NCBI GenBank assembly: GCA_029582155.1 | Contig: CM055902.1 | Coordinates: 17,825,011-17,889,010 of the forward strand | Reading direction: 5' to 3' | DNA from: Panopea generosa | Taxonomy: Eukaryota > Mollusca > Bivalvia > Adapedonta > Hiatellidae | Length of the DNA stretch: 64,000 nt | Notes under the pieces: generated by a model | What the model was told of the DNA's origin: nothing | Databases searched by the model: none | Seen by the model: only the letters and a program-made list of their open reading frames with translations | Shown here: one piece after another, positions 14,501 to 63,917 of the stretch | Layout: each line of letters begins with the position of its first letter | Position numbering within the stretch: position 1 is the stretch's first letter | Position numbers and translations under genes: made by a program

Positions 14501-17500
14501 AGAGTGCATTATTCACTGTAAGAGTAAAAACATGTAATCCAAATCAAAACTGGCATAGAAATTAGCAAGAAACATATGCAAATAACTACAAGTGTGGGTA
14601 ATGCAGGAGGTCACCGTTACCAATTAACTTTGGATGTCATTTTGCCTTTGGAACATGGTAAGAACGTGTTTACGATATGTAATAATAACTTGCGGTTTCT
14701 CCACGTGTGCGTTTTACACACTGTTTATTGTTTTAAGAAGCAATTAAGAAGTTTATTGTTTTTACAATTGTTGACATTTCAACAAACGTGTTTTACTGTA
14801 TAGAATAACATAAACTGTTTGTTAATGTTAAATCTCTAAGAAAACAGACAATAGACACGTGCTGTACGGAAAGCTACGATTAAAGGTGTTGGCTATCTTT
14901 GATGGAATGTTTTTGGTCATGCCATGCTATGAAAAGCATTCTACTGCATGCATTGATATGCTATCGCCCCCAGAGAAAATTGTTGTGTGTGTTTGATTGA
15001 TTATCAACGTGTGTTTTAGAACAAAAACAATACTGCAGGGATATGCATGATAACGAATAAAATGTATTGATCAAGGACACATCACGTGATACCATAGCAG
15101 GATCACGTGGTGTGTCCATGAGTTAGGAGAGTTTTTTTTTCATCAAAAGGTAGTACATGTATATTTTTAGCCAGGTTGACATTTAGAGTGCAATTTACGT
15201 TAATCACAGTTAAACAATTATTTCACGATCGATTGATAATGACAGTCATAATTCATAAACAGTCGCGTGGCGAAAAATGTAAAAAAAGTATGGTGTGCCA
15301 ACAAGATAAAAATAACCGCTACCAGTACACCGTTGAATAAGTGGTGCATCAGCATATAAACATGATAATGCTCTACAAAAATATAGGAAATAGGTAATGT
15401 ATTTTTAATTAAGATATCCATATTCAATGCCAGATATAATAGAGAAAGGTATTACGGATACGCGATATAATGACGCTAGTTTGACATTTCCGCGTATTCG
15501 ACATGAAATTAACCCCAACCCTTCCTCTAACCATCTCAGCCTCCAAAACTAATGACTTAAACATCTAAATATCGGAAGACAAATAACGAATATCAAACTA
15601 ACGTCCTACTGCTCACAAGAGAATGTGTAGTTTATCATTGCTTTGCTACACAACACGACGCAAACTGTTATTTGAATCTAAATAATGACATTAATCCGAT
15701 TCATTTTCGCACAAACGATCAGAAACCTGTTTGCACTAAAACAAATTGAAACGCAATTGTCTTTAACAATATGGCGGTATTTATCGGCTGTAATGACGAG
15801 CTTAAAGTAAATACAATGATTTCTATTTGTAACGCAGAATTACATTTACAACATATTAAGTAGTTAAAACGAGAAAATAAAAATCAAGTATGCCATGATG
15901 AATTACCTGCAGCTGTAAATTAATTAAGTTTCAAGTAGATGTTCCCGCCATTTAGCTCTCCGCTTTACAAACATTCATAAACAAATTGTGTATAGTGTTT
16001 ATTGTAATACATTCATTTTGTTGTCTGTTTTTTTTCATCGATTACGAAATAAACACTGTGGTGTATATGAATAATTCACAATGGCGTGCATGAAGGAAGC
16101 GATCCATTTTGGTTCGCAAAAAAAGAAAACCCCAACAATACCATGTGTTCAATTTTATAACGCCTCATTTAACGTTGATTATTTTCAACGAGGCTCGATG
16201 CCTTTTTCAACACATTAGAAATTATATATGACTTCCAGTTTAATAGTTTTAGGAATATTTCAGAATGAATTATAGCAATTAAACCACAATCCTTTCGATA
16301 TTAACACGCAAACCGTCTCATAATAAAGTGTTTGGACAGACTTACACTCGAACCCTCGACATGACCTTCATACGCACATGACCTTCCACAATGTTTCCAT
16401 AGAGAACGCCAAATTGTCGATTAAAACCTGCAGCGGTTTATGCGTTTTATCGTTATCGTTGCTATGTTACCTCATATTAAAATGTCCGGATTATTCTGTT
16501 AGATGTATAAAATAATGATTATTTAATTTTGGAAAGTATATACGTATAATTATGATAAGATGTAAAGGATATTAAGTACTCTATAAATATTTTTGAATTC
16601 CCTCTATTATTCATTTTAGAGCCGTTTATATTGCCTGAGTATACCTGTGTGTTTGGTGTAAGCGTATTTATTTAATTAACATAGATTGTGGGACAATTTC
16701 TTACTACTAGAACCAGTCAAAACACGCTCGAAGTCTTTCTAGTCTGTAGTAGGGTTCCAGTTCTCCCGACTGGGTCCGTTCACTAGCAATGTTGGGAAAG
16801 CCCCATTTGAGCACGTTGATTGGTCAGTTGCTTCAACTGAAAGATTGAATGACTTCACAGTTAAGTTAGCGTTCAATTGCTATGAATTGTGGGACAGGCA
16901 TAGACCTGATTCTGGAGATATCAGGTTCTGGGATAGACTTAAGTTCTCCTGTGTAGAACCAGACAATTCACACTCAAAATCTTCTTGGGTAGAAATAGAA
17001 CCAAACAAGTATAAACAGTGTTTTGCCCAAAGACACCACGTTAATGGTGGATGATCAAACCTCCAACCCTAGGTTTGATATTCCAACCATTGAACCAGGT
17101 ATAACAGGTATTAGATCGACTAATGAAAATTGTGAATACATTTTAAATGTTGCTACTACCATTATCTAATATAAGTTGTGTATTTTTTTACAAAATTAGT
17201 AGATTAACGAATATACATGTATTGAGTGTTTTTTCCAATAGGGGTGTAAAGTGTCAAAAAACAGACGACTTGGAATGGCGGAATGATGGTTACCTGGTAA
17301 CGGAGACGTCGGCGTCTGCTGATTCTACAGACATCGTCAAAGTTTTCAATATGTTAATTAATAAGGTCAGTGTATTTCATGTATTTTCAAACAGACACAC
17401 GGTAATGTTGAAAACAGTGTCACCCAAGGTCAGAGGTCATCAATCTTCAAATATTAACGTCTGCAACTTCATATTTAAGACAAGATTAACGTTTTCTTCA

Positions 17501-19940
17501 TTAAATATCAGTATCTTCAGAATGTAAATCCATAATTATGTCTTTTTTTCTACAACTATGACAATGCGGAAATTCAAATATAATATATTTAGCAGTTTTT
17601 GGTACAGCTGACCGTAAACGTATTTTGTTTATTCTGCCAACCACTCCACTCCCACATCCCCACCCTGCTCACCCGCCATCAAATACAATGCAGACATGAT
17701 GATCTGCATGCTGCATAAACCGGAATCTGACATCATGCAGATACTGTGTAGTTTTCAAAATTAGTGTCAGGTGAAAATTCAACAAAATTGCCGTGTATCC
17801 ATTTGACATTGCAGCAGACGGTACAGTGTTTCCTTTCAAACTGAGATGATGGATAAAACATAAGTGAATACGTGCTTTTTATAATCTCTTAAATGTCTCC
17901 ATTTTATTATAAACAGGCGTATTTTCCATCAGGTAAATAGCGCGTGTTCTCAACTATGAACTTTAATAGTTTATTTATTGCCAGACTATTGCTGTTTAGA
18001 TACAGTGCAGAGAAAATTGTTTTACGGTATGTTGTTACGTTACTTGTTTTTTAAAAACAGCACTTAACAATTTTGATTGTTTGTTCATTGTTTTGTCTTT
18101 GCACGATTTTAAAGATTGATTGTTTTATTATGCCAAATAACGCATATTTAACATAGTGTGCACACATGCAAATTATCAAACTTTCAAGTATTCTTAAAAT
18201 AGTTTTATAAGGTATATTGTTTTGTCAGAATTACCGTTTTATGTACTTTAGGATGTTTCTAAAGTAGAGGTACAAATGTCTGCTTCCGCACACATCCCAA
18301 TCACATTAGATTGACACAAAATATTCTGTGGTTCCTGATTTCTGTCATGTCGTCTTGTTATTTTGTTGGGGTGAAAGGACAACGGAATGACATGAACTAA
18401 ATGAATATCATTGTCAAGTACCATGCGATCGAAAGATCGTTAAATTATGCAAGACAGTAAAGCGACAGAACGACATAACAGGACTCACACCACTATTATC
18501 TCCCTTGAGTACTCCAGACCTACAGATGAAGGAGGTAGAAATAAAGCTTTAGTTCTCTTTTTCTTCTTTTTTTAGGGCTTTGTACTGCAATGTTTTGTTT
18601 TTTGCTAGCATGAGTTAAATGGTCAGTATTTTAGAAATCACCACTGAAAATTTGATGCTGATACCAGCTTTCTGGACAATTCTGTGTCATTTCAGAATTG
18701 TTGGTTCGAACCGCATCTAGGGCGAATAGTTGACATATTATTGCTCTGGAAATTGATAGGTCTCACAAAAGCATTGAATTTAAAAAAAAACAACCTGGTC
18801 AAGGTATACTTTTTTTTCTTTACAATTGCATATCTTGTACCAGTGAAGAATTTGAGCCTAGACACATACTGCAGAATTTAATTTTTCACTCTGTTTTGGA
18901 CATAAATGTTACAATTGAGCCCTTTGGGAAATGTAATAGTGGTGTGAGACGATAACGTAAGGTCGGCAAATATGTCGCTACGGCAGTGCACTACAACAGG
19001 ATGCCAAGGACAACACGACAGAATGGCTGGACAACTAGCTCAACACGTGTGATTGATTGAATATTTATCGTCATTGTTATACCATCGAGGGCTAACTGAC
19101 GATCAGTTAACCTATCTACTGTTTCCTGGGATCCTGAAAGGTTAACAAGTACTCGAGCACACCCCATCTCCGCAAGTAACAAATAGCTTTTCCACTTGAA
19201 TCAGCAGTGAGAAACGAATGATGATTAGACACAATGTCATATATCAACCATCATGGAGATTGTGGCCGGGCGGGGACTCGAAGTCACGACCACTGGATTG
19301 ATAGTTAGACGCGCTAACGACTGAGCTTATCGTGCCCGGTTAAACATGTGTGACACAAAAGTACCTTTCATCGCGACACTACGGCTCCTAAATATGTCAT
19401 TCTTTCTCCCACCAAGTGCCAACGCTTTCGCATAAAATTTACCAGCATTTTGTTGCCAATGAACCACCAAACCAGATAATGTCGTCATGATTATTCTTGT
19501 CGTTCTGTAGCTCGTTCGCCCCAGCAGATGGCTACGATGAAATGTTACATTCCCGTCCTAGAACTATATGTTAATTCTGAAGGCAAAGAGTGGACTTTTA
19601 GATATTTGGATACACTTTATTCAATTATTTGAATGATTTAGTATGTTTAATCACAGAAACCGGCTATAGGGCTGTGCCTTATTCTTACAAAATTTTAATT
19701 CTATTCATGTGAGAGTACATTGAAAGTTTCAAACTTATTGCATTGACTCAATACTTAAACAATATTATACTTTATTAAACCAATGTGTTCTCTTTTTTCC
19801 AGATACTAGAAAAACGCGATATAACGATCAAACAGCAACGGAAACTATCTCAGAATCCTTTGGGATCACCGAAGTTAATCCGGGCAACTTTAAAAAGACG
19901 ATTTAGTGTGTTTACTCGCGAACGAACGTCCTCAATGTGA
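11549..19940 (+). CDS. Ras-like small GTPase (RERG/RASL11 type), 5' partial
   Basis: Four exons join in frame: 11549-11679, 14293-14486, 17242-17365 and 19803-19940 (TGA), each with an AG acceptor and, for the first three, a GT donor. They encode about 195 residues of a small GTP-binding protein. Visible G-boxes are DISG (G3, where most Ras proteins have DTAGQ), NKAD (G4) and ETSA (G5). The first exon seen starts with two bases of a split codon and reads AIVVRYLTGRYLTEY, the stretch that follows the P-loop in this family. The P-loop exon must therefore lie upstream, and I could not find it. An in-frame ATG at 11509 would give a form without a P-loop. The C-terminus is basic (LKRRFSVFTRERTSSM) with no CAAX box, as in RERG/RASL11 proteins, which are not prenylated. 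Switch II has K where Ras has the catalytic Gln61, so hydrolysis may be atypical. Introns hold SINEs and a 16-bp inverted repeat. Confidence 0.85.
13935..14107 (-). mobile_element. tRNA-derived SINE in the Ras-like gene
   Basis: Read on the minus strand, a tRNA-like head has box A (GTAGTTTAGTAGATAGAG) and box B (GCAGACTCGATCCCC). Its body carries the GGTTCTACCC motif and ends with AAGCTTTGAGCTTTC. It belongs to the same family as 10524-10735 and 49805-49985 and sits in the intron before the exon at 14293. Confidence 0.7.
15075..15117. repeat. 16-bp inverted repeat with CACGTG cores
   Basis: GGACACATCACGTGAT (15075-15090) and ATCACGTGGTGTGTCC (15102-15117) are inverse copies with one mismatch, separated by 11 bases. 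Each arm contains an ATCACGTG motif, a possible E-box, in an intron of the Ras-like gene. Function is unknown. Confidence 0.7.
16690..17060 (+). repeat. Dispersed repeat (GATTGGTCAGTTGCTTCAAC family)
   Basis: The motif GATTGGTCAGTTGCTTCAAC, then GCTATGAATTGTGGGACAGG, recurs diverged at about 28600-28735 and 29160-29300. The repeats also share a CCAGTTCTC...GGTCCGT block. This copy lies in the intron before the GTPase exon at 17242. The superfamily is not recognised, and the short open frame over it is not a gene. Confidence 0.55.
18480..18815 (+). repeat. Dispersed repeat, inverse of 41622-41950
   Basis: This stretch starts with ACTCACACCACTATTATCTC, contains GGTTCGAACCGCATCTAGGG and ends near AACCTGGTCAAGGTATAC. 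The reverse complement of almost the whole stretch is found at 41622-41950, and a short end piece is at about 37550-37568. The two long copies are well conserved. I do not recognise the family. Confidence 0.7.
19071..19341 (-). mobile_element. tRNA-derived SINE (GATCCCAGGAAAC family)
   Basis: On the minus strand the head has box A (AAGCTCAGTCGTTAGCGCG) and box B (GTGACTTCGAGTCCC). The body includes TTGCGGAGATGGGGTGTG and GATCCCAGGAAACAG and ends CCCTCGATGGTATAAC. It belongs to the same family as the copies at 22808, 50848, 54499 and 60621. It lies in the last intron of the Ras-like gene. Confidence 0.8.
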
Positions 19941-23923: not shown

Positions 23924-24403
23924 TTAAAGTGATTATATTGGCAAGTAACACAAACACGCTGTTAATCAAGACTTTTTTTTTGTATGCAGTGTGCACAGAA
24001 TAATGCTTATGTATTGACGTATAACCTTTATTTACTTGAAAGTTATCAACTTAACAGTAATTGAATATTTGCTAAAACTTTAATACGTCCCGCAATAAAG
24101 TATTGCGCAATAATTACATTGAACTCCGTAAACTTCCCGAACAAAGCCTCGAAAACAAGATCTGGAACGAGTCTCCACGATGTTATACGGTGATTGATCG
24201 GAAACCCGAAAGCGGTTCGTTGAAAATAGCAAATGTAAACAAAAACAAAAACGTGGCTTCCGAAACCCGATGTTTGTAATAAAGAGGTTATGCAATTAGA
24301 CACTTTAAACGCGTATATCTCTAAGGTATAAGAGCATCTTCATGCTGGGCGTGTGTATTTAGGACAGGGAATTGACGGTAATATGCCAATATAATCCCTT
24401 TAA
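23924..24403 (+). mobile_element. MITE, TTAA-flanked family, copy 2
   Basis: This full-length copy of about 480 bases begins TTAAAGTGATTATATTGGCA and ends TGCCAATATAATCCCTTTAA. It has the same interior as 27794-28270, including ACACAAACACGCTGTTAATC and GGAAACCCGAAAGCGG. The open frames on its minus strand are not host genes. Confidence 0.85.
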
Positions 24404-24582
24404 TGTAAGGGCAGTAATTAGCATTACGAGCATGCCTAACTTAAACCGAAAAATGCTACTCCACCGCTGACGCCGGGGCAAGTACAATAGCTCCCTTTAA
24501 AACAATAAGTCGAGCTAAAACGGTAATGCTATAATATAATATCAGACTAGTTCGTATATGTTTATATACGAAATATTACAGT

Positions 24583-25478
24583 TTACATGTAATATCCCAT
24601 TTTCTTAAGCATAATATATTTCATGCTCATCCACCAATTTGCCTTCATGCTTCGTATATATTCGTTCATAGAAACTGCCTTGCTTCCGCCAACCATAGTG
24701 AAAGGTTTCACATTGCGCATGCGCATGTTGAACCTCTTGGAATAGTTCATATTTTGTCTGTTTATATATTCCACGTTGCTTGTACTCATAGCTTGAGGCC
24801 TGTTGGGATCTGCTGTGGGTGAATTATTTTTTCGAGCAGAACGAAGACCTGCCATGAAACTTGGCCTGTTTGTCATGGGTTGCAGACTCGTTCTGCCCCT
24901 AGAGCCTCTTACACTCCCGTTCAAACTGGGACGTTGAGTTTTTCTGGCGTCACTCATACGCGGCATATTGACAACAACTGGAACAGAGTTCCGATTCATA
25001 TTAGCTGACATTAAAACAGGATTTCTATTCAGATTTGGAACCAGTGCATTTCTGGAGTCAGCCATGCGTGGCATATTGGCCGACGTCATATTGCCCGTCA
25101 TCATCATGGCGGCAACGGGAACTGGCATTGGCAAAACAGGACCCCTCGTTCGCATAAAATTGGCTTCTATAACGCGGTCGTTGAGAGGTTGAGTGGTGCG
25201 ATAGTTACCAAACCGAGAGTTGAAGTCTCCCCGGGACACAAGTCCAGTAAGTTCAAACCACTGAAACATAAAATGAGACAATGTCTTTTCTGTCGCAGAT
25301 TTATCTCTCCATCTTTCTTATCTACCTTATATATTTGTCCGTCTGTACTTCCGTCCGCGCGCATGCTCACTCGTCGGTTCGATCTCTCGCACAACTGACA
25401 GCCCGTCCGTTCCTCCCTCACTCATTGCCAGCCTGTCCGTCGGTCCGTCCGTCCGTCCGTCCGTCCGTCCGTCCGTCC

Positions 25479-25535
<57 letters not shown>

Positions 25536-28500
25536 CATTATAAGAAACTTACTGCTCGTTCTGTGACCCGTATGGGCTCCCGTAATATTAGCCAGCGTAC
25601 AGATTCATGACACAACGGTGTTGTCGTACTTCCACGATAAGTGTAGAATTCACATTCTCTGTTGAAAAACATGGCCATATCTACCTCTGTACTATAATTC
25701 TGCTCTGTAAATATATATATGTATATATATAGGTTTGAAGTTAATGCAGTCGTCCATGCACTCGCTTCTTAGCAAACGCCCTCCTAATAAGACTGGACCC
25801 AGTATTTTTTTTTTAAAGGAAAACCACACAGTATACGCGAATATTCGTTGTTACAATATGTAAAACGATGAAGTCACGATGTTCGAAATCACGATTGCGA
25901 TTAGAAATCACGATTACACGATGGGAAAGTTACGTGACATCACCTTGACTTTGACATGGTGACATCCCTATTTCGCAATCGCACTTCTCCGTCACCTTGC
26001 CATGGTAACATTGCAGTATGGTGCTCTGAACCTGACTTTATATCGGACAAATCATGAAAATCGTTTTAGTGGGTTTTTATTGATGACTTATGTGATATTT
26101 TGCGCCGGTTCGTAGTATTACAAATAAAACCAGTTTTTTTTTCAATTAAAACTTACGATATGGTGATATGGGTGGGATATTTCTAGTCAAGAACTCGGAG
26201 AATCTTGAAGTTTCGCCGTTGTCTACAGCAGTGTCCGCTATTTTCTGAAAACAATAGTCAAGTCCCTCGTATTATTTTACAAAATGCGTGTTAGACTAGA
26301 ATATATTTTACTGTTTTAAATATTTTAAAAGCTTTGACATGTGTATTTCCAATTAACACATTATCATGTTTCCAATATTAGCATTAACGAGTGGTCAAAC
26401 ATTGACTAGTTTGTCAGCTGACAATAAGGTGGAATTTCATTGGTCAATATATGTTTCGAAATCGTTTGAGAGGTTAGGTTGTGTTTTACAGAAGTCTCTT
26501 CACCACATACAAATTGTTAACAATATTACATATGTACTGCATGTCACATATAAGGGTAAACAGTCAAAACAACATATACTTTACAGTATAAATACCATGA
26601 TATACATACAATCATAGGCGTAGGAGCCGGGGGCCAAATTGGGGTGCCAACATATACTTTCTCATACATCCTAATACACTCTCTCCTCAGGTTGCCCCCG
26701 CCCCCACCCGCCCCACCCCCATAATTGAAACGCTCTTACACCAATGACAATATGGGAATCCCGGCTTTAGAGGATTTAACTATCGCTATCGTTTGAACTT
26801 TTGAACTATTTATATATGCATATAAAACAAAGCAATTCAATCATAACAGTTAATGCAGTTAGACCCGTACCTGCACTAGAATAACTATGACAACAACGCC
26901 GTCCGGTTTGTCGTCTGCTTCCTGTAGGTCCTTGTATTTATTATTGTGGAAGACAAAATGAAGCTGAAATATGCAATATGATACGGTTATAATTAGAGTG
27001 GGGGTACATCGTACACCGGATACTGACCTGTAATTGTCAGACTTTTTTTTAAAATTGGGGAAAATTTTGCTCAGCAATGTAAACCGAACAAGACTATCGA
27101 CAATTCAGTACGACGTTATGAGAGACTAATGCGTAACTGATATAAATCAGTTTCAAATGCTCATAAACACGTGAAATGAAGCAGACCTGTGTGTAGTTGC
27201 TGTTTTGATGGGAGTTTAACGTAATTTACAACAAAAAAGTTACGGTATGTGATACCCAGTACAATTGTCAACTTAGGGCCTTAGAATAAGGCAGGCTCTG
27301 ACCGTCATCACTTCATAAAAAAACCCACAAACCACGACCTTTACAAGTTGTATTTTTTAAATTGATTTTAGCCAGCTTCCCCTACCCTTCCGGTACTGAG
27401 GAACTACATACCTCCCCTTCAAACCTGATACCGTCAAGTGTATGTTCCGACCCGGCAGACATGATACCGCTACCTCGGAATCGGCGACCCTAAAAAAGAA
27501 TATAAAAAATATTGTTAAGATTGTAGTTCTTAATATTCAAAAATGCATATGTTTTTTTTTTATAGTAGTCTTCAACATCGCTAAAATTTGTTTTGTTTCA
27601 GTTTTTATTACACTCATTTAGTGCTTAACCCCATTTCACAACCAATGGAATCGCTTTTGTTGCTCTTATTTGTTAAAACAGCCTACAAAATAACTTAAAT
27701 ATTAGAAGTTCGTTCTTAATAATTAGTATTAAGTCATCATTGCGCAATCCTGAATGAGTCATGTACAAACTACAAAGTCTGTGAGAGCTATGCTTAAAGG
27801 AATTATATTGGCAAGTAACACAAACACGCTGTTAATCCAGACTTTTCCTGTATGCAGTGTGCACAAAATAATGCTTATGTATTGACATATAACCTTTATT
27901 TACTTAAAAGTTATCAAATTAACAGTAATTGAATACTGGCCAACACTTTAATACGTCCCGCAATAAAGTATTGCGCAATGTTTACATGGAACTCCGTAAA
28001 CTTCCCGAACAAAGCCTCGAAAACGAGATCTGGAACGAGTCTTCACGATGTTATCCGATGATTGATCGGAAACCCGAAAGCGGTTCGTTGAAAATGGCAA
28101 ATATAAACAAAAACAAAATCGTGGCTTCAGAAACCCGATGTTTGTAATAAAGAGGTTATGCTATTAGACACTTTAGACGTGTATATTTCTAAGTTAAAGT
28201 GTATCTTCATGCTGGGCGTGTGTATTTAGGAAAGGGAATTGACGTTAATATGCCAATATAATCCCTTTAAAAACAGCTCACTTTGGGTTTCTTAATTGTT
28301 AAATTTTTACTTAAGGAACACTTATATTAATACTTAGTTCATATCGATGTCTTTGAACTTGCGTCATTATCAAAGTGTCATCGAGTTCATCAAGGTCCTA
28401 CAACTGCATCCAAAACCAATGGTTTCAACATATTTTATTTCCAATATTAACATTATAATTAGAGGTTAATCGACGTAATTTTCCTATTATGGGATATAGT

Positions 28501-31429
28501 TCCCTTGGGCTGTTCACATATCTTGTCAAAATCGAGTGACGTAATTGTTTAATATTCACTAACAGGCTTTCGATATTAAAGTAGACTGGTGAACAGACCC
28601 AGTTCTCGCTACTCGGTCCGTCATATAACAGTTAGATTTGATCACTTTCATTGGTCAGTTGGTTCAGCGGCAGTTAGGATAGCGCGTAAGTGCTATGAAT
28701 TGTGGGACAGACATAAAATTCCGATTCCATTTTGACCAGATATGTGAACAGCCCAAGGGAACTATATCCCATTGGGGTTTTGACATGATATCTGATTTGG
28801 GAGATATTAGGGACTCGGATAGTTAGCATATTTCAGTATTAATAAAAACGTTTCATTATTAGAGGTGTCTGATTATATACAAGTTCCACGTTGAATATCG
28901 AAACACGAAGGCTGCAATCTACGAATATTAAGTTGATTTATTAATTAATGTAGGAAAGGAGAAAATAACGAAGCTTTTAGGGAGCTTCAAACGAGGACAT
29001 GGGTGATGACTCGGGTCTACAAACATATTCTAAAAATTAAAAAATATTTGTTTCATGGGGAAGCAATAAAGGGTCATTATTCAAAGGTTCTTCACGTATG
29101 TCTGTGAGATAAAGAGCATTTAAAAACAAAGTGGCATTAGACTGTAGGAATAGTCCTAGCCCTCCGAGCTGCTGATTGGTCAGTTGCTTCAACGGAAGTT
29201 AAATTACGTCACGATTTGGCAACCACAATGGACTGTTATGAATTATGCGACAGGCAGGGAATTCCATGTGTTTACATTAAGGTTTAACATACCTGAATTG
29301 GAAGATACCATGTGCTGGAATAGACTAAAGTGGCAAATACCTTCGGTAATGGCAAGTGTAAAGCGGGAATGCTACATACATTTACTTTTTTTAAACAAAA
29401 GTAAAACAAGTGTTGGGTAATGCCGTTATTTGTGATTAACATTGAGGTATGGAGCAAAATCCATCAAATTTTATTTATGTCATACCTGTTGATGAATATG
29501 TTGTTGTCAATAGGAAGGATCACCCGTAACCGAGTGCCTTTGTGTGTTCGAGCCCAGCTCGGTCAAAAATGGTATATGAGAAAGGACGTACATTCTACTA
29601 CTAAGATTCATTCTGTTCTAAGTTTGCATCTCAGCCAGTATAACGGGATGCCATATATTACTTGTCAAATGTTTAAAATGGCTGATATGTCTGGCGTAAT
29701 GGTCATAGTCCCTTTCTACGGACTGCCAACGTGTTGACAGCAGTGTTATAAGTACATCTGCTCGGCTTAAAATGGTATAAAATATCACCGAAAATGGTCT
29801 AGCACTTTTACAGTGGATTGGTAAACCTCTGTTGTCAGTCAATTTTGTCATGGTACTTCCCAATACTATATACTCGGAATTCTTCTATATTAATCCCATG
29901 GTTAAAGGGAGATATTTGAAAGAAAGTGGAATAGTTTGGTGTTTTGAATGTACAATATACAACAGACTAACCTGTAGTTCAAAGTTGCGGCCTGTGACAC
30001 CTCCGTAGTGAAGATGGAAGTCGTGCATGTAGTATGTACCGGTACGGTATGGTATATTCGTTAGCCGGTACGCCATGGGGGTCTCCGGTTCGAACTCTGC
30101 GGTGTGGCCTGTTAACAACACGTCAGTGTCAGTTAAAGTCAAATATGGTATTTTCAGAATCAAGAAATTGGCAAAATCTAAAATCAGATGTGGTGGACTT
30201 TTACCTACAAGTTGTTTGTTTGATTTTGTGAGGTTAAATAATAATAATAAATATATAATTATAACCATAAAGTTTTCGGAGCTTATGGTACATACAATTA
30301 CATCACTTTTACTTGGTACTCGTTAATCTTCGCCAGTATGTTCGGACGTTTAAACGCCAACACCGTACAGCTACTCGTGAGTGCGATCTATAAATGGTAT
30401 TGATTTATTAACGGCAATATCACTATTAACGTTCGGACATCCAATATTAATTTACGGATATACACAATTTATAAGAGTGCCAGGTAAATTCTAACGCACA
30501 ATACACGAGTGCTCTTCAATAAACACGTGTACGGTACTTAATATATTATCAACAAACTGCACGTGTTTTACGGGGAACATTGCACACACCTCCCAGACGC
30601 TCCACTTACCGTTGTTCTTTATTTTGCCCTTCAGGATATTACTGGTGTACAGCATTGTGGGGCACTGACAGGAGACCCCATACCGGACCAGGTTCGTCTG
30701 GATGTCTACTGGAGACTGATTTCGACCCCCGCAGCTTTCACTATACGTCCGCGGCCAGTTGTATACACCTGCAATGTTTACTATAATTATGTTGTTGTTG
30801 TTGTTGTTGTTATTGTAATATATTTACATCGCTTATCATACTATTTAGTGGAACTATTCTACAGTAGTTATTGGACCCTCATTTGGTTATCTATGGACTT
30901 CGCCGAGTTGGTCCAAATGCATCTTTCAATTAAGCGACAATATGTATAAGTTAAATTTTTGTTCGAGGGAAAAAGCTAAACTATATATATGGAAAGCTTG
31001 TTCTCAGAAAAAAACACACCTTAGGCTACAGAATTGTCTAAAATGACCGAACTTCTTGATGTACTGAAATGACAAAACTGAGTATCTTATTGTGTCATAA
31101 TTAATACGTAACGGTGTTAAGGCCTATGTAATAATTTTTGATATTGGTTTATTTGTTGTTGTTGTTTTTTGTTGTTATTTTTTTTTCAAATATATAGTCG
31201 CATACAACACCTCTTACCCCTGGCTAAAAAGAACAAAGTATAAATGTAAAAAGTGAAGAAACATAACAAGAGCAAAGATACCACACAAACCTAACATATT
31301 GGTTCGATCAGGGTCATAGTTGAATCGCGTCCTACTGTCAACCACCCATTGGTACAGCGTGGACGACGTCACTCCGGGTACATGCAGCGTTACTAACAAG
31401 CAGACGATTTTAACAACAGACGTCTCCAT
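24583..31429 (-). CDS. Secreted alpha-carbonic anhydrase with basic Met-rich tail
   Basis: Eight minus-strand exons join in frame to 491 residues: 31429-31291, 30768-30610, 30108-29972, 27489-27412, 26963-26871, 26244-26157, 25656-25553 and 25260-24583 (stop). The family hydrates CO2 to bicarbonate. Residues 1 to about 20 form a signal peptide (METSVVKIVCLLVTLHVPGV). The domain spans about 27-301. Zinc ligands are H131 and H133 (FHLHYG) and H173 (LHFVFHN). H101 (NNGHT) matches the proton shuttle His64, and E160 (GSEHT) and E171 match Glu106 and Glu117. C59 and C247 match the disulfide of secreted members. GSTTTPLC keeps Thr199, but Leu198 is Thr. R287 in NYRTTQPLNDR fits the usual C-terminal motif. 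The tail, 302-491, has by hand count about 26 Met, 30 Arg/Lys and 5 Asp/Glu, with a repeated NMPRM(A/S)D block. Such a tail recalls nacrein-type shell enzymes, whose inserts are usually acidic or Gly-Asn-rich; that link is inferred. The exon 7 acceptor is chosen by frame. Confidence 0.9.
25441..25532. repeat. (GTCC)n plus (CT)n microsatellites in carbonic anhydrase intron 7
   Basis: About ten GTCC units are followed by about 26 CT units. On the gene strand this reads (GA)n then (GGAC)n. It starts about 20 bases after the exon 7 donor at 25552 inside a 292-base intron. Read-through from exon 7 meets a stop codon within a few codons, so the repeat is not translated in that frame. Confidence 0.95.
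27794..28270 (+). mobile_element. MITE, TTAA-flanked family, copy 3
   Basis: This 477-base copy runs from TTAAAGGAATTATATTGGCA to TGCCAATATAATCCCTTTAA and gives the clearest view of the family's inverted ends. It sits in intron 3 of the carbonic anhydrase gene, in the opposite direction to that gene. The 72-residue open frame inside is part of the element. Confidence 0.85.
28489..28772. mobile_element. Foldback element with inverted ends of about 47 bp
   Basis: ATGGGATATAGTTCCCTTGG at 28489 is mirrored by CCAAGGGAACTATATCCCAT ending at 28772. Pairing continues inward (CTGTTCACATATC with GATATGTGAACAG, then TTGTCAAAATCGA with one mismatch) for about 47 bases. The middle holds a diverged copy of the repeat family also seen at 16690-17060. 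It lies in carbonic anhydrase intron 3. Confidence 0.85.
29150..29300 (+). repeat. Dispersed repeat, copy of the 16690-17060 family
   Basis: CTGATTGGTCAGTTGCTTCA, then CTGTTATGAATTATGCGACA, match the copies in the Ras-like gene and in the 28489-28772 foldback. It lies in carbonic anhydrase intron 3. The open frame from 29184 runs through it and is not supported as coding. Confidence 0.5.

Positions 31430-43273: not shown

Positions 43274-63917
<20,644 letters not shown>

Follow-up and report, generated by a model that had tools for sequence, protein, structure and literature searches.

In the 64,000-nucleotide stretch of Panopea generosa DNA analysed here (the window), a minus-strand gene encodes an alpha-carbonic anhydrase (CA) that runs on, in frame, into a basic tail of 190 residues rich in Met, Asn and Arg. 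The product may be a secreted, catalytically competent enzyme that is tethered by its cationic, mostly disordered tail to an extracellular matrix, a reading to which we give an even chance. The gene (31429-24583) has eight exons that join in frame into 507 residues, with a single terminal stop and none internal, and its introns follow the GT..AG rule in seven of seven cases. Exon 8, stop codon included, corresponds exactly to 24583-25260. A preliminary description of this segment had reported a last exon running about 190 residues beyond the enzyme domain; the count is exactly 190 (25155-24586), and the proposed combination of a CA with an in-frame coding tail is borne out by the match to the Pfam family PF00194, the eight in-frame exons and the open 190-codon frame. 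The features of the gene are as follows.

Exon 1, 31291..31429, minus strand: start codon, putative signal peptide with h-region IVCLLVTLHVPGV, N-terminal linker
Exon 2, 30610..30768, minus strand: CA domain begins; C59 of a possible extracellular disulfide
Exon 3, 29972..30108, minus strand: proton-shuttle position H101; zinc ligands H131 and H133 (FHLHYG)
Exon 4, 27412..27489, minus strand: basic insert ends before GSEHT; gatekeeper E160
Exon 5, 26871..26963, minus strand: third zinc ligand H173 (LHFVF)
Exon 6, 26157..26244, minus strand: CA domain
Exon 7, 25553..25704, minus strand: YTYRGSTTTPLC, gatekeeper T260, C263
Exon 8, first 35 codons, 25156..25260, minus strand: end of the CA domain (RTTQPLNDRVIEANF)
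Basic Met/Asn/Arg-rich tail, 24586..25155, minus strand: 190 residues (318-507), wholly inside exon 8
Repeat block copy 1, NMPRMADSR, 25051..25077, minus strand: from residue 344
Repeat block copy 2, NMPRMSDAR, 24943..24969, minus strand: from residue 380
Stop codon, 24583..24585, minus strand: end of the joined reading frame

A repeat some 480 bases long, its ends inverted (23924-24403), starts about 180 bases past the CA stop codon, and an ATTAAA at 24404 adjoins its end. Further copies lie at 27794-28270, in intron 3 of the CA gene (inverted ends, for example, TTAAAGGAATTATAT/ATATAATCCCTTTAA), at 2297-2750 and at 49358-49687. Elsewhere, a 2.5-kb near-perfect inverted repeat (44358-46872; 96.5% over 2535 bases against its own reverse complement) is either real or an assembly fold-back. 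It carries a frame with a GIY-YIG domain, as in Penelope-like retroelements, twice and in opposite orientations. The window also holds a 1.9-kb minisatellite (6-1890) that contains long open frames and is built of about 93 copies of a 20-base unit, with 75% matching, and a tandem repeat with a 34-base unit in about 17 copies (62810-63396), which open frames of 230 and 185 codons overlap. Two putative plus-strand exons, chosen by eye (17242-19940), would supply the 86-residue end of another gene (KRRFSVFTRERTSSM, then a stop); the best match of this product to a solved structure (E 1.5) is not significant. Rfam shows no match within the window.

The alpha-carbonic anhydrase family PF00194 is the sole Pfam domain found in the protein at E up to 0.01. 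It matches residues 49-317 with E 2.7e-50 and nearly full length (profile 4-254 of 254). NCBIfam, a prokaryote library, has no match in residues 1-317. Alignment with two solved CAs places H131, H133 and H173 at the zinc-ligand positions, E160 and T260 at the gatekeeper positions and H101 at the proton-shuttle position of the standard CA numbering. C59 and C263 presumably occupy the disulfide positions of extracellular alpha-CAs. By this alignment the catalytic residues are intact, and the enzyme is predicted to be catalytically competent. The closest solved structure among the best 60 of 226 matches is CA6 (3fe4; E 5.9e-35), followed by CA3 and CA2, an order that ranks similarity and is no tree. 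CA6 is a secreted isozyme; its 278-residue chain is matched as far as residue 259 and has no tail of such length. A basic insert with RRFR, within GVTGRNFELQGRRFRGSGIMSA, accounts for 15 gap positions in the CA6 alignment and 17 in that with CA3 and is missing from both of these aligned structures. It lies between the first two zinc histidines and GSEHT and spans the exon 3/4 boundary (27412-27489 with 29972-30108). The isoelectric point is 6.51 for the first 317 residues and 9.84 for the whole protein.

No 19-residue window of the protein has a higher hydropathy than that at the N-terminus (mean 1.66), which is read, by inspection, as a putative signal peptide. The best such window in the tail reaches a mean of 0.98, with no transmembrane-like stretch, and thus no membrane anchor is seen there. 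A secreted enzyme, as proposed earlier, would fit both features, and we infer secretion. Of the six N-glycosylation sequons of the protein, four are in the tail. The tail also carries KR (457), KK (501) and RxxR (400, 422) sites, so that trimming after secretion is possible.

The affiliation with nacrein-type CAs suggested in the preliminary description is not supported. Nacrein, N66 and nacrein-like proteins resemble the putatively secreted Panopea CA in being secreted alpha-CAs that usually bear a low-complexity part. None of the four nacrein-typical peptides of Song et al. (QSPIN, GSEHS, PMEA and YTY(E/A/P)GSL(T/S)TPPC; PMC4066178) is present in the Panopea CA, which has QSPVD, GSEHT and the exon 7 peptide given above instead and lacks PMEA. 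Its CA domain is a single unbroken Pfam stretch, followed by the basic tail and split by no low-complexity sequence, whereas in nacreins Gly-X-Asn or acidic repeats are described as dividing this domain (PMC3374290, PMC4066178). In two other papers, the nacrein repeat is assigned to the C-terminal region or to the C-terminal end (PMC6639325, PMC6599672). The unbroken domain alone is not decisive, because mussel NACRs without such a repeat are reported to group with nacreins (PMC6639325). One of them, MgNACR, keeps only the first zinc histidine and has Gln at the other two places (PMC6639325), in contrast to the Panopea CA with all three. The latter could still work like a nacrein, as a secreted CA whose extra part is directed to a matrix, though it lacks two nacrein features.

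The 190-residue tail contains 26 Met (13.7%), 23 Asn, 21 Arg, 19 Ser, 16 Pro and 9 Lys, and neither Cys nor His. Its 30 Arg and Lys stand against 3 Asp and 2 Glu, giving a pI of 11.89. These computed values equal the earlier hand count (about 26 Met, 30 Arg/Lys and 5 Asp/Glu) and agree with the view of an added part that is basic, not acidic. The tail is coding sequence, as its frame and ATG statistics demonstrate. The tail frame is free of stops, of which the other sense frames have 19 and 7, and ATG triplets number 26 in frame but 2 and 0 in the others. A chance open frame is ruled out: none of 5000 dinucleotide-preserving shuffles stayed open, and none of 3000 reached 26 in-frame ATG (mean 6.4, maximum 15). 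Codon usage lends no support to a coding tail, because the synonymous codons of the tail fit intron base composition slightly better than core codon usage (-1.070 against -1.125 in mean log-likelihood); for the core, the values are -1.203 and -1.073.

A block NMPRM(A/S)D(S/A)R had been described as repeated about 40 residues apart. The repeat is present, but the spacing is 36 residues (344 and 380). The pairing extends to 17 residues with a score of 54, which one in 300 shufflings of the tail residues also reaches, and the internal repeat is probably real but modest. The two blocks share seven identical residues, two of whose seven codons differ silently, and the copies are therefore no fresh DNA duplication. 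The charge-hydropathy rule puts the tail on the disordered side and the core on the ordered side, so that the tail is probably disordered.

If the tail is a tether, its Arg and Lys residues would contact acidic proteins or anionic polysaccharides, with hydrophobic contacts of its Met/Pro-rich parts assisting. The CA would thereby be held in the extracellular matrix, where it could interconvert CO2 and bicarbonate on site; in a shell-bearing animal, this matrix would be the shell or periostracum. Tethering and matrix location are suggested by precedents: Lottia CAH2, basic anchoring domains and Met-rich insoluble scaffold proteins. CAH2 of Lottia gigantea (Lotgi1|239188, B3A0Q6) is described as a signal sequence, one CA domain and then a low-complexity tail of 26% Asp, 23% Gly, 22% Arg and 13% Asn (PMC3374290). 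It is found in the shell, where it makes up 0.88% of the identified proteome, and is disordered at 415-633 (PMC4094399). The Panopea CA shows the same layout of putative signal peptide, one CA domain and long tail that is disordered by the composition rule, the two proteins being likened by description. They differ in charge, as the whole-protein pI is 5.87 for CAH2 (PMC4094399) and 9.84 for the Panopea CA, with its still more basic tail. The assumption that shell CAs carry acidic or Gly-Asn additions fits the cases examined, with the qualification that the CAH2 tail holds its 22% Arg beside 26% Asp (PMC3374290).

Basic domains are known from shell proteins for which the source texts, as far as available, name no CA domain. 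In KRMP-3, the lysine-rich region accounts for the effects on CaCO3, and carbonate, acidic proteins and anionic sugars are its postulated partners (PMC4498902). In KRMPs, the basic domain is joined to a Gly/Tyr domain, unlike in the Panopea CA. For Tridacna shell proteins, Lys/Arg-rich basic domains were suggested to anchor polyanionic polymers or to interact with bicarbonate (PMC8217771). Among other CAs, Haliotis laevigata has two that are predicted to be secreted, one mainly in nacre and flagged for a disordered region, the other almost only in the prism layer and flagged as Q/G-rich (PMC6003135). Abalone Hdh CA I (337 residues, pI 6.54, 2.4% Met; PMC8082251) provides an ordinary-length contrast to the 507 residues of the Panopea CA. 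A disordered tail alone is no pointer to a matrix, because the 347-residue tardigrade RvCA5 bears one without a predicted signal peptide (PMC12899995). RvCA5 is likewise an alpha-CA with conserved zinc and shuttle histidines and a disordered C-terminal extension, but it is extended at both ends, whereas the Panopea CA has a C-terminal tail and a putative signal peptide.

Further observations count against the tether. The Met- and aromatic-rich last 45 residues lie marginally on the ordered side of the charge-hydropathy rule (0.472 against 0.469), the mean TOP-IDP values of core and tail are nearly alike (0.050 and 0.077), and in KRMP-3 chitin binding resides in another region, the basic one not binding chitin (PMC4498902). 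More tentative than the tether as such is the narrower idea of a charge-reversed matrix CA, a working enzyme fused to a basic Met/Asn/Arg-rich scaffold module in a shell-forming animal and held on an acidic or Met-rich framework. We regard this as possible but somewhat doubtful.

Pinctada MRNP34 is, by its name, reportedly a Met-rich shell protein. A Met-rich region occurs in most of the proteins identified in insoluble nacre, prism and ligament of Pinctada; the recombinant Met/Glu-rich part of one of them, NU-5, aggregated, and NU-5 knockdown led to disturbed nacre tablets (PMC7591529). The Lottia shell contains the basic, Met-rich proteins MRP (pI 9.62, disordered) and GMP (18% Met, pI 11.24) (PMC4094399). 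With its 13.7% Met, the Panopea tail could accordingly be a co-assembly module whose Met-rich stretches enter and cross-link into an insoluble Met-rich scaffold of shell, periostracum or ligament and turn the enzyme into an integral component of it, its charge being secondary. This alternative is unlikely, though it deserves to be weighed: Lottia MRP and GMP and Pinctada NU-5 and LMP are Met-rich like the tail, and MRP and GMP are also basic, but these precedents are likened by description only and are no CAs, no CA domain being named for them in the accessible portions of their sources.

The Met-rich bias, better known from shell scaffolds, counts, if only indirectly, against a second alternative, that of a non-shell CA secreted in mucus, gill, gut or egg coat and held to glycosaminoglycans by its basic tail. 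CA6 as the best solved relative would fit this explanation, which we consider rather improbable. Mussel mantle alone is reported to express ten alpha-CAs, most of which belong to the membrane-associated/secreted cluster (PMC6639325), and a secreted CA therefore need not be a shell protein.

The tail could also be a fast-drifting low-complexity addition without a specific partner. Repetitive low-complexity domains are held to speed the evolution of shell proteins (PMC4897951), part of the tail probably stems from internal duplication, and no homolog of the tail was found in Pfam, solved structures, or prokaryote or viral contigs, all of them poor places for relatives of an animal low-complexity tail. 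A known domain was rejected, as the single Pfam match of the tail (E 0.065) scores 13.7 bits against a cut-off of 27. With exon 8 as query, a fibronectin chain matched part of the tail (E 0.18) and CA6 the end of the CA domain (E 0.92) among solved structures, and the tail alone gave one match (E 1.6); these weak matches are taken as chance. Prokaryote contigs yielded 20 matches to the tail pattern and viral contigs one, none of them confirmed, and neither is an expected home of an animal relative. A transposon or window repeat was likewise rejected, since searching the window with the tail by blastn and tblastn (E up to 1) returns no other copy, only the tail itself, its own internal repeat and one 19-base match (E 0.36). 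Against drift, the phase-specific Met enrichment and the uninterrupted 190-codon frame suggest some constraint on composition. We consider this alternative improbable. Finally, binding of copper(I) or scavenging of oxidants near the enzyme by Met clusters of the tail (MMM, two MPRM, MRM and MSM), for which the Met motifs of copper transporters are a known precedent, is very improbable, as the high positive charge disfavours cation binding and the tail is devoid of His and Cys.

Literature searches over largely open-access full texts found no CA with a basic Met/Asn/Arg-rich tail, which is weak evidence of absence, and no paper combining NMPRM with carbonic anhydrase. Met-rich basic shell proteins and the idea that basic domains anchor polyanions have already been published separately, and their union in one protein was not found in the parts of the literature covered. 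If the Panopea protein is a charge-reversed matrix CA, the enzyme would be held by a charge opposite to that of the classical nacreins. With its catalytic residues intact and a basic, Met-rich part instead of an acidic one, this enzyme is a natural contrast for asking which property of the low-complexity parts carried by several shell CAs matters. Should it too occur in the shell, calcium binding by the added part would be no common reason for the fusion, and tethering would be the better general explanation.
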